Positions 55,307 through 59,549 of a DNA stretch of 64,000 nucleotides are shown piece after piece. The stretch is from Litorihabitans aurantiacus (GTDB lineage Bacteria; Actinomycetota; Actinomycetes; Actinomycetales; Beutenbergiaceae). The position numbers were made by a program, and so were the translations under genes. The stretch is from positions 1 through 64,000 of the forward strand of contig NZ_BSUM01000001.1 of NCBI RefSeq assembly GCF_030161595.1, in the 5' to 3' direction. The notes beneath the pieces were generated by a model that saw nothing but the letters and a program-made list of their open reading frames with translations, searched no databases and had not been told where the DNA came from. Numbering within the stretch: position 1 is the stretch's first letter; every line of letters begins with the position of its first letter.

Positions 55307-56616
55307 ATGACGACGCCGGAGCAGCAGCGGGTGCAGCGGGGATCCTCCGCGCGCCGCTGGCTCCTGCGCGGTCTGCTCGCCGGCGCCGGCGCGGCGGGGG
55401 CTCTCGGCCTCGGTGCCGCGGGTGCGTCGGCGCTCGACCTGCTGGGCGGCGACGGTGCCGTGAGCGGGATCGTGTCCGAGGTGGGCGACCGTGTCGTCGC
55501 TCCCGTGGTGGACGGGGTGGTCGACGGTGTCGTGACCCCCGTCGTGGACGAGGTGGTTGCGCCGGCGGTCGAGACCGCGGTGGTGCCGGTGGTCGAGCCC
55601 GTGGCGCAGGACGTCGCAGCGCCGGTGGCGCAGGATCTCGCCGCACCCGTGGTCGAGGCGGCTGCCCTTCCGGTGGTGGACGACGTGGTCGCCCCCTCGT
55701 GGAGGAGGTCGCAGCACCGGTGGTCGACGACGTCGTCGCCCCCGTGCTGGACGAGGTGGCAGCTCCCGCGATCGAGGAGGTCGTGGCTCCCGTCGTCGAC
55801 GGGGTCGTGGCGCCGGTGGTCGAGGAGGTCGCGGCTCCGGTGGTCGACGGCGTGGTCGCGCCGGTGGTGGACGAGGTCGTGACCCCCGTGGTCGACGACG
55901 TGGTCGCCCCCGTCGTCGAGCAGGTCGCGGACGGCGTCGTGACACCGGTCGTCGCTGCGATCGAGCCGGTTCTCACCCCCGTGGTCGACGCGGTCGAGCC
56001 GGTCCTGACCCCGGTGGTCGAGGGTGTCGGTGGCGTGGTCGACCCCGTGCTCGAGCCGCTCGTGCCCGCGCTGCCGGGTGGGCTCGAGGAGGAGGTCGCG
56101 CCCGTCGTGCCGGTGCCCGCTCCCGGCCTCCCCGGGATGCCCGGGACGCCCGCCGACTCCGGCGCACCGCTGCCCGCGCCTGTGCTCCCCTCCATCCCGG
56201 CGCAGCCGGACGCCGGCCAGGTGGCGCTCGCGGACGCCGGCGCCGCGTCGACGGCCGGCGACGCCTCGTCGTCGCGCGACTCCGCCACCGCGCCGCGTAC
56301 CGCGATCTCGACGCCGGTCGCCGCGCCGTCGGGCCCCGGGGGTGTCGAAGCACTTCCGCAGGCGTCCACCGCCACGCAGGACGGCGGAAGCGGTGCCGAC
56401 GAGCGCGAAGGCAGCCCCTGGGGTGGTGCCGCCACGGTCGCCGTGATCGGTGGTGCGGCCACCGCCGTCGGCTCCGCGGGACCGACCCTGCTGCGCGAGG
56501 CGGCCCCGGCCGGCGGCGTCGCCCTCTCCGCCCTTCTTCTCGTGGGCGTGGCCCGGCGTCACCAGGACGCGCTGCCGCCCGCCCCCGCCCTGCGCATCCC
56601 CGTCTCTCCCGCCTGA
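55307..56616 (+). CDS. Secreted Val-Pro repeat protein (frameshifted)
   Basis: 436 residues after correction. The signal peptide is RRWLLRGLLAGAGAAGALGLGAAGASA. Residues ~40-255 are degenerate repeats of APVVDEVVAPVVDGV type: short valine-rich strands broken by Pro-Val and acidic residues. A Pro/Ala/Ser-rich region and a C-terminal hydrophobic segment (GGVALSALLLVGVARRHQ) follow. No known domain. The frame breaks at CCCCC 55692-55696; one missing C joins VVDDVVAP to LVEEVAAPVVDDV. CAGGAGCC precedes ATG 55307. The chaplin-like gene follows after 80 bp, so the pair may build a shared surface structure. Confidence 0.75.
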
Positions 56617-56696: not shown

Positions 56697-58850
56697 ATGC
56701 ACGTAGTCATGCGTCGAGCACTGCAGACGGTGCTCGTGTCAGGCGGCCTGGTGGCCGCAGCTGCGGGGGCGGCTCACGCCTCCGACGGGTTGCTGGGAGA
56801 CGTCGGGATCGACGTCCCGGTGACCGTTCCGGTGGAGGTCAGCGACGTCGCCGTCGGCCTCCTCGGTGACGCCGCCGTGGTGTCGCCGCCGGCGGCCCCG
56901 GCCGAGGCCCCGCCCCAGGCGCCGGTCGGCGGCGGTGGTGAGGTCGAGCGTCCGGTGGAGGCGCCGCAGGCGGCGGTCGAGGGCGACGGGCTCGCCGGGG
57001 ACGTCTCGGTCGAGGCGCCCGTGACCGTCCCCGTCGACGTCGAGTCGATCGCGGTCGGGGACGCGACGGTCGTCTCGCACGAGGAGCCCGCGGCTCCGGC
57101 GCCGGCAGCTCCCGCCGAGGCGGCTCCGGCCGCTGTGGCGGAGGAGTCGTCGCACTCGGACGACGGTCTGGTCGGTGACGTCTCGGTGGTGGCGCCGGTG
57201 ACGGTGCCGGTGGAGGTGTCCGACGTGGCCGCGGGTGTCCTGGGTGATGCCGCGGTGGTCTCGCACGAGACTCCGGCTGCTGCTCCGGCTGCCCCGGTCG
57301 AGGCGGCTCCTGTCGCTGTGGCGGAGGACTCGTCGCACTCGGACGACGGTCTGGTCGGTGACGTCTCGGTGGTGGCGCCGGTGACGGTGCCGGTGGAGGT
57401 GTCCGACGTCGCAGCAGGTGTCCTGGGTGACGCTGCGGTGGTCTCGAACGAGACGCCCGCGGCTGCCTCGGCCGCTCCGGTGGCAGTGGCGCCGTTGGGC
57501 TCGGGCTCGGGCTCGGACTCGGACTCGGACGACGGTCTGATCGGTGATGTCTCGGTGGTGGCGCCGGTGACGGTGCCCGTGGAGGTGTCCGACGTCGCTG
57601 CTGGTGTCCTGGGTGACGCCGCGGTGGTGTCCAACGAGTCGCCCGCTGCTCCGGCCGCTCCGGTGGCGGCTGCGCCGTCGTCGTCGGGCTCGGGCTCGGA
57701 CGACGGCCTCGTCGGTGACATCTCGGTGGTGGCGCCGGTGACGGCGCCCGTGGACGTGTCCGACATCGCCGCAGGTGTCCTGGGTGACGCTGCGGTGGTC
57801 TCGAACGAGACCTCGGCTGCTGCTCCCGCGGCTCCGGTGGCGGCTGCGCCGTCGTCGTCGGGCTCGGGCTCGGACGACGGCCTCGTCGGTGACATCTCGG
57901 TGGTGGCGCCGGTGACGGCGCCCGTGGACGTGTCCGACATCGCCGCAGGTGTCCTGGGTGACGCCGCGGTGGTGTCCAACGAGTCGCCCGCTGCTCCGGC
58001 CGATCCGGTGGCGGCTGCGCCGTCGTCGTCGGGCTCGGGCTCGGACGACGGCCTCATCGGTGACATCTCGGTGCTGGCACCGGTCACGGTGCCCGTCGAC
58101 GTGAGCTGCATCGCCGCCGGAGTCCTCGGCGACGCCGCGGTTGACTGCACCACGACGCCCGCGCAGCCGGTCGACACCACCCCGGGCGCCGAGGCTCCCG
58201 GCGGCGGTACGGGCGGTGGCGGTCTCATCGGCGACATCGGGATCGAGCTGCCGGTGACCGTCCCTGTCGACGTCGGCTGCATCGCGGTCGGTCTCCTGGG
58301 TGACGCCACGGCCGAGTGCACGACGGCCGCCGTCGACCCGGTGGACCCGGTGGACCCGGTGGACCCGACCGACCCGGTGGACCCGACCGACCCGGTCGAC
58401 CCGGTTGACCCGACGGATCCGACGGACCCGGTCGACCCGACGGACCCGGTCGACCCGACGGACCCGGTGGACCCGGTTGACCCGACGGACCCGGTCGACC
58501 CGACGGACCCGGTCGACTCGACGGACCCGGTCGACCCGACCGACCCGACCGACCCGACGGACCCGACGGACCCGACCACGCCCGTCACCCCGGTGACGCC
58601 GGTGACCCCGGTGACGCCGATCGACGTCACGACCCCGGGGACCACCCCCGGCGGCTTCATCAGTGACGACGGCCGCGTGATCACCGCGACCGGCACCACC
58701 GGTGCCGGCACGACCATGCAGGTCGCGAGCCAGCAGTCCTCCCTCCCGACCACGGGCGTCACTCCGTTCGCGGCCGGGATCGCAGGGCTCCTGCTCCTCC
58801 TGGGGGCGGCTGCGCTGCGGTACTCGCGTCGGTCGACCTCGGCGGTGTGA
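56697..58850 (+). CDS. Chaplin-like nine-repeat surface protein with LPTTG sorting signal
   Basis: 717 residues. Signal peptide to ~28, then nine repeats of about 32-34 residues ([32 protein letters not shown]), separated by Ala/Pro or Ser/Gly/Asp linkers. The pattern parallels chaplin domains: G-x-x-G-D/N, V-P-V-x-V-P-V-x-V, then G-x-L-G-D-A. Only repeats 8 and 9 keep the two Cys (SC/GC and DC/EC) of true chaplins. A DPVDPTDP stalk (~545-626) and a Thr-Pro run lead to LPTTG (~682), a hydrophobic helix and an Arg-rich end: sortase-linked to the wall. AAGGAGAAGGATCG precedes ATG 56697. Assigned by pattern, not by alignment. Confidence 0.75.
57150..58135 (+). repeat. Near-identical DNA repeats coding chaplin-like units 3-8
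   Basis: Six units of about 150-190 bp (GACGACGGTCTGGTCGGTGA landmark near 57158 and 57338, with close variants every unit). DNA identity between neighbours is very high, suggesting recent duplication or gene conversion. Confidence 0.8.
58338..58581 (+). repeat. Asp-Pro minisatellite (GACCCGGTCGACCCGACG-type)
   Basis: About 240 bp of 9-bp units coding D-P-V / D-P-T, including one DST variant. Forms an extended wall-spanning stalk and is likely length-variable. Confidence 0.85.
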
Positions 58851-58927: not shown

Positions 58928-59004
58928 GCGCCGTCGTGCGCCGGAGCGGGACGGGATGCGGACCGATGTCGGACCCTCGTGACACCTTCGCTACCATCGG
59001 CGGG

Positions 59005-59091
59005 ACCATCCAGAGCAGCTGAGAGACCTGGCTCGACGACGCTGCAGCAACCCCCGTCACGGGTGCGGGTGCTACCGCCAGGCCCGATGGA
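59005..59091 (+). ncRNA. SAM riboswitch (SAM-I/IV clan)
   Basis: S-adenosylmethionine aptamer in front of a methionine-synthesis gene pair. P1 is CCATC/GATGG (59006-59010 with 59086-59090). The kink-turn parts are CTGAGAGACC and CTCGACGACG, the core is GCAGCAACC, P3 is CCCGTCACGGG and the late strand is GGTGCTACCGCC; all match S-box landmarks. The P1 3' strand runs straight into GGAGGAG (59089-59095), the ribosome binding site of the next gene, so SAM binding probably hides it and blocks translation. The choice between SAM-I and SAM-IV needs a covariance search. Confidence 0.85.
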
Positions 59092-59100
59092 GGAGTGAGC

Positions 59101-59549
59101 ATGACCGATTCCGCATCGTCCGACTGTCGTCACGACGGCGGCACCCACGGCTACGCGGGCGATCTCACGCCCGCCGAGGCGTGGGAGGCGCTGGAGCAGG
59201 ACGGCGAGGCCGTCCTCGTCGACGTCCGCACCCCCAGGAGTGGCAGCACACCGGGGTGCCGGACCTGACGTCGCTCCACCGTGACGCCGTCCTCGACCCG
59301 CTGCAGACGTTCCAGGGGCCGAACCCGGACTTCCTCGAGGCGCTGACGCGCGCCGGTCTCACCCCCGGCGACAACCGGACCGTCCTGTTCGTGTGCAAGT
59401 CGGGCGGTCGTTCGATCGCCGCGGCCCAGCTCGCGACGTCGGCCGGGTTCGGCCCGGCGTACAACGTGCTCGAGGGCGTCGAGGGTCACGCCGGCCCCGG
59501 CTGGGCGGGTCAGGGCCTGCCGCTGCGCGCGTGGGAGGGCGAGCGATGA
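59101..59549 (+). CDS. Rhodanese-domain protein under SAM riboswitch (frameshifted)
   Basis: Single rhodanese domain, 149 residues after correction. DLTPAEAWEALEQDGEAVLVDVRTP starts the fold; the active-site Cys lies in VLFVCKSGGRSIAAAQLA (Cys-Lys-Ser-Gly-Gly-Arg, ~100). The frame breaks at CCCCC 59231-59235; one missing C joins DVRTP to QEWQHTGVPDL. ATG 59101 has GGAGGAG, which overlaps the riboswitch P1. Its stop overlaps the metZ start (ATGA). It likely carries persulfide sulfur for the sulfhydrylase or matures a sulfur donor; that role is inferred from the operon. Confidence 0.88.

Follow-up and report, generated by a model that had tools for sequence, protein, structure and literature searches.

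The window, which is the whole 64,000-nucleotide stretch of DNA that was analysed, contains a gene for an LPXTG-anchored surface protein with a poly-chaplin-like architecture (Table 1). The open reading frame, here called poly-chaplin, opens with an ATG a short way behind the ribosome site AAGGAGAAGG and closes with a stop codon at 58848–58850. Translation, motif inspection and TRF confirmed the coordinates, the nine units of which seven are free of Cys, the signal peptide, the Asp-Pro stalk and the LPTTG motif given in the initial annotation. Each unit is about 35 aa long; the first seven contain no Cys and each of the last two contains a pair. TRF reports a tandem array with a period of 171 bp at 57155–58141, and its score of 1226 shows that the repeats are not due to chance. 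The identity of units 6 and 7 (57702–57980) at the protein level points to a recent duplication or expansion of the array. Sortase anchoring, also proposed earlier, is borne out at the level of the motif, as LPTTG is followed by a hydrophobic stretch and a basic tail. The anchor models of Pfam and NCBIfam stay below cut-off on this C-terminus. Six sortase genes are found in the genome, none of them within the window. Antisense ORFs over the gene and a long ORF from 55557 were rejected as by-products of the high G+C content.

Table 1 Features of the poly-chaplin locus (window positions; res, residues of the poly-chaplin product).
Feature	Position	Strand	Properties and basis
Partner gene	55307..56616	+	signal peptide, VVAPVVDEV repeats, C-terminal LRIPVSPA; immediately 5' of poly-chaplin
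Poly-chaplin-like, LPXTG-anchored surface protein gene	56697..58850	+	717 aa; translation and orthologues in relatives
Signal peptide, res 1-29	56697..56783	+	sequence; relatives with the same N-terminus type
Unit 1, res 30-64, no Cys	56784..56888	+	
Unit 2, res 97-128, no Cys, 3 residues shorter	56985..57080	+	
Unit 3, res 156-190, no Cys	57162..57266	+	
Unit 4, res 217-251, no Cys	57345..57449	+	
Unit 5, res 279-313, no Cys	57531..57635	+	
Unit 6, res 336-370, no Cys	57702..57806	+	
Unit 7, res 394-428, no Cys, protein-identical to unit 6	57876..57980	+	
Unit 8, res 451-485, Cys pair CX12C	58047..58151	+	
Unit 9, res 508-542, Cys pair CX12C	58218..58322	+	
Asp-Pro (DPVDPT) stalk, then TPVTPV run, res ~546-648, net charge -28	58332..58640	+	
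Sorting signal: LPTTG (res 683-687), hydrophobic stretch, basic RYSRRS tail	58743..58847	+	motif

Upstream of poly-chaplin, separated by 80 bp, lies a gene for a secreted-type Val/Pro-rich protein, which we call the partner. It is the new element here; the initial annotation does not mention it. No meaningful family match was obtained for the partner in Pfam and NCBIfam, and no LPXTG-type sorting signal is seen in the product, which ends in IPVSPA. The reading frame is broken near 55694; the gene is intact in the same-genus relative G002, where it encodes 491 aa.

A second copy of poly-chaplin is located at C1:3656466, at the other end of the contig C1, with 99.98% identity and 1-bp indels as the only differences. 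We rejected a gene duplication in favour of terminal redundancy of the contig. The two ends concerned are about 1–73028 and 3599680–3672707 of C1. In the parts compared, from window position 55320 to about C1:73029, the start is repeated at the end with differences of 1-bp indels only, which we read as an unremoved terminal overlap of a circular chromosome. Gene counts in the terminal region of C1 are therefore doubled. The assembly copies differ by single-base indels at 55396 and 59230, and the frame break near 55694 is common to both. Indel noise in the sequence is what breaks the partner gene, and it probably also breaks the rhodanese-like gene at 59181–59549. A SAM riboswitch (RF00162, 50.8 bits) at 59003–59093 stands ahead of this rhodanese-like ORF and a MetZ-like sulfhydrylase gene, both of which are conserved in G002 and G009.

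The initial annotation interpreted the units as chaplin domains and made its refutation depend on the lack of any significant profile match together with a predicted fold unrelated to beta-strand stacking. A Pfam search with the whole protein returned no chaplin match, and none of the nine units reaches the gathering cut-off of PF03777 (ChpA-C), which is 21 bits, the best unit scoring 13.3 bits (E 0.075). Matches to Amelogenin, LiaF, DUF7162, Apolipoprotein and similar families are sub-threshold and driven by composition. A search of the whole genome with PF03777 gave two matches at E ≤ 0.01 (best E 0.0055) and no short chaplin genes. One of the two matches (L093), once fetched, proved to be unit 1 of poly-chaplin, and the other is presumably the assembly copy of the same locus. 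A weak unit-like match at C1:2115699 falls within an apparent hydrophobic membrane protein and was judged to be chance; a tblastn search of plasmids with the last units found no match.

Three further comparisons establish homology. The scores of the nine units lie at 12–24 bits when the profile is made from accepted chaplins. Eight of them beat all of their 300 same-composition shuffles and the ninth is equalled by one of 300, i.e. by one shuffle among the total of 2700. In a profile-profile comparison with accepted chaplins, the genus-level unit profile scores 26.1 with a column-shuffle maximum of 20.1 (300 shuffles), a result that is modest taken alone since the reversed profile scores 21.5. 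The family-level profile scores 44.2, with a column-shuffle maximum of 18.8. A unit from the same family, DVVADNTVTAPVTVPVNVSCNSVAVLGDASAEC, reaches 24.6 bits against PF03777, and Cys-free poly-chaplins with the same architecture and gene order from other families of the same order score 71.2, 50.6, and 39.9 bits. The intermediates between poly-chaplin and the accepted chaplins thus form a continuous series, and the hydrophobic strand pattern is retained in all units and across genera. Judged from these sequence comparisons, poly-chaplin is related to the chaplins by descent.

Membership of the family in the strict sense is a different matter. In Streptomyces chaplins, each domain is defined by a set of three GN motifs together with a pair of Cys (PMC13251363, PMC7766987). 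The nine units contain no GN motif and have two GD each instead, and the Cys pair is limited to units 8 and 9. Exceptions to the rule of two Cys per domain are ChpE and the second domain of ChpB. Compared with chaplins, the GN of the first turn has changed to GD and the second GN is lost. The earlier claim that Asp stands in place of the chaplin Asn therefore holds for the first GN. It does not extend to the Asp of VLGDA, which is no special Asn-to-Asp change because VLGDA is also present in Cys/GN-bearing poly-chaplins (L080/L083). With its signal peptide and C-terminal sortase signal, the protein has the layout of a long chaplin. Considering the profile tests together with the missing GN motifs and the restriction of the Cys pair to the last two units, we regard poly-chaplin as homologous to chaplins and long-chaplin-like in layout, yet outside the family by Pfam and motifs. 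The refuting condition of the initial annotation has a mixed outcome. What stands of the chaplin interpretation is homology, from the shuffles, the profile-profile scores and the bridging relatives; what falls is the assignment of any unit to the family at the Pfam cut-off.

The poly-chaplin gene is found in 11 of 24 genomes of the family (4 of 10 genera) and, across the order, in 54 of 347 genomes (20 of 104 genera), which agrees with the earlier statement that it occurs outside the Streptomyces context. The number of units in the order's poly-chaplins ranges from 3 to 11. Most of these proteins carry LAxTG or LPxTG at the C-terminus, and some of the loci that lack such a signal are frame-broken or lie at a contig end. 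In the family of the window, Cys pairs occur mainly in wall-proximal units and are missing from most others. Multi-domain PF03777 proteins with 6–8 domains and intact Cys exist outside the order as well, elsewhere in the class. Nine domains, presented in the initial annotation as a distinguishing property, are therefore unexceptional. A contig (L049) whose match is mainly to the stalk was judged unrelated. A 2013 report (PMC4255298) already described chaplin-like genes outside Streptomyces, among them one in the non-sporulating Arthrobacter chlorophenolicus. Genes of this type were known before, but the poly-chaplins range more widely than the literature searched describes.

The initial annotation had also suggested a look at the neighbours in related genomes, and the partner gene lies upstream in essentially all of the 35 order loci examined. 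A same-strand partner ORF ends near the poly-chaplin start in 34 of them, and in the 35th (L061/G015) the partner match is likewise upstream. These loci come from related, non-independent genomes that cover several families and differing outer neighbours; the lpd/metZ flanks, for instance, are common to only 2 of the 11 relatives first fetched. The partner products end in IPVSPA, VPVSPG, DVSPD, GSSPD or GSRPD. All 34 C-termini have Pro at position -2 with Asp, Gly, or Ala at -1, and 31 of the 34 have Ser at -3 or -4, compared with 8 among the 1673 remaining ORF ends of these loci; as the partner set was gathered partly with the C-terminal pattern, the counts for matched cases are not fully blind, and pattern-free listings show the same ends. 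The middle region of the partner is variable and of low complexity, so homology of the partner between families rests on its position, the secretion-type N-terminus and the C-terminal signature. A partner match in G021 was set aside, as it is located in a 2466-aa frame and probably reflects composition.

Outside the order, a gene ending in ADDPSFSPD precedes a Cys/GN-bearing poly-chaplin in 5 of 8 loci. The five proteins concerned (L124, L125, L128, L130, and L131) have 6–8 such domains, a membrane stretch and a basic tail, with no LPXTG seen. At Streptomyces-type long-chaplin loci, the partner-type ending occurs in 0 of 10, and the long chaplin adjoins a short chaplin. In three genomes of the window's family (loci L142, L143, and L144) a second partner-like gene, with the C-terminus RPGFAPD, directly precedes a different secreted repeat protein, which is rich in Ser, Asp and Glu and contains APISVGGVTVTG-type motifs; the one such protein scanned, that of L142, gave no Pfam match. 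The partner is therefore not exclusive to chaplins, and its type goes with surface repeat proteins, mostly poly-chaplins.

An aggregation prediction had been proposed in the initial annotation. On the AGGRESCAN scale, hot spots cover 49–86% of each unit and 0–30% of each linker, and the unit values resemble those of Streptomyces-type chaplins. Kyte-Doolittle GRAVY values are 1.0–1.2 for eight of the nine units and 0.35 for unit 2; Streptomyces-type chaplins have 0.5–0.7. The unit region has a net charge of -75, an acidity that, unlike the near-neutral state of Streptomyces chaplins, could oppose packing. An AlphaFold check had been suggested as well. The single-sequence AF2 model of all nine units is all-beta, with pLDDT near 80 in the strands and pTM 0.68, and has no match in the PDB (best E 0.77, TM below 0.1). 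The model of two units has pLDDT 47 and pTM 0.20. AF2 is known to produce confident but unrealistic beta-solenoids on repeats (PMC11795689). Given this artefact, the missing PDB match and the collapse of the two-unit model, we left the nine-unit model out as evidence and regard its predicted beta stacking as unreliable.

We consider it reasonably probable that poly-chaplin is a diverged, multi-unit long chaplin which is anchored to the wall and forms a self-associating coat with the help of the upstream secreted partner. The protein would be exported through its Sec-type signal peptide and attached covalently to the wall by a sortase acting on LPTTG. A stiff, acidic Asp-Pro stalk may keep the units off the wall. 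The nine Val/Ala-rich hydrophobic units, predicted to be beta-prone and separated by putatively flexible Ala/Pro/Ser linkers, would most likely self-associate on the surface in the manner of chaplin domains, giving a coat with hydrophobic or adhesive properties. Each of the two wall-proximal units is probably locked by a disulfide. Tandem duplication within one chain would replace the separate short chaplins, which in Streptomyces polymerise on the long chaplins. The partner, presumably co-made with poly-chaplin, may aid assembly or co-assemble, and its action might depend on the conserved S-x-P-(D/G/A) C-terminus.

A protein descended from chaplins that no longer forms films would account for several of the same observations. 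It might be a soluble, extended brush or adhesin, in which the units serve as a spacer array and which gives a hydrophilic surface or binds cations or ligands. The strong negative charge of the unit region, the loss of the GN motifs and the disordered two-unit model are consistent with this, as is the long Asp-Pro stalk, since such stalks are typical of wall-spanning adhesins. However, the hydrophobic strand pattern has been kept in every unit and across genera, and all units but unit 2 are more hydropathic than Streptomyces-type chaplins. We therefore regard the brush or adhesin as rather unlikely. Less credible still is the view that the partner is a mere neighbour, its order kept by general operon inertia, and that poly-chaplin acts alone. 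Streptomyces-type long chaplins indeed function without a partner, and the partner-like gene before a different repeat protein in three genomes fits this view. The adjacency nevertheless persists across several families and another lineage while the outer neighbours change, and the partner, though variable elsewhere, keeps its C-terminal residues. Convergence of Val/Pro-rich low-complexity repeats in an unrelated repeat adhesin, to which the whole-protein Pfam search and the low unit scores might point, is largely refuted and highly improbable, as same-composition shuffles almost never match the unit scores and continuous intermediates have a common gene order.

Chaplins are known chiefly for their part in aerial growth and sporulation in Streptomyces. 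The conserved order of poly-chaplin and partner in many actinobacteria suggests a widespread two-gene surface-coat system. A diverged poly-chaplin lineage that is paired with the same kind of secreted partner and present in roughly one in five of the genera sampled from another order would suggest a broader role for chaplin layers, for example in attachment or surface hydrophobicity. The partner would then be an undescribed assembly partner. As Pfam misses the divergent end of the lineage, annotation underestimates it. More tentatively, and with somewhat less confidence than in the coat itself, we propose that a two-gene surface system is in wide use among actinobacteria other than Streptomyces. 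In it, a one-chain poly-chaplin would make separate short chaplins unnecessary, and the conserved S-x-P-(D/G/A) end of the dedicated secreted partner would serve for docking or capping when the chaplin layer assembles.

Among the known systems, poly-chaplin shares with the long chaplins ChpA-C of Streptomyces coelicolor the signal peptide, a repeated beta-prone hydrophobic unit and the C-terminal sorting signal, and its units have detectable sequence homology to Streptomyces-type chaplins. It differs from ChpA-C in having nine units rather than two, no GN motif, a Cys pair in the last two units only, an acidic character with an Asp-Pro stalk, a genome in which no short chaplins were found, and a different upstream partner. 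The Cys-free poly-chaplins of the order (e.g. L101, L111, and L063) have a signal peptide, 4–10 units, LAxTG, a Pro-rich stalk in most cases and the same kind of upstream partner gene, whereas they are less diverged and lie above the Pfam cut-off. The PF03777 poly-chaplins of other actinobacteria, such as L124, L125, and L128 (8 domains, 14 Cys), likewise have many units per chain and an upstream product ending in SPD, but they keep the CGN motifs and Cys pairs and have the membrane stretch and basic tail in place of a visible LPXTG. The rodlins RdlA and RdlB are secreted and cooperate with chaplins on the surface (PMC7766987); the partner matched no family meaningfully in the Pfam and NCBIfam scans.

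By analogy, the nearest published counterpart outside Streptomyces is a gene pair of Actinoplanes missouriensis, cwpA-cwpB. Its two hydrophobic products are anchored by SrtE, have no chaplin domains and are proposed to render the surface hydrophobic (PMC13251363). Both systems consist of adjacent surface-protein genes in a non-Streptomyces actinobacterium with no further homologues in the genome. While CwpA and CwpB are both sortase substrates and contain no chaplin domain, here the sorting signal is on the downstream product only, and it is this product that carries the chaplin-related units.
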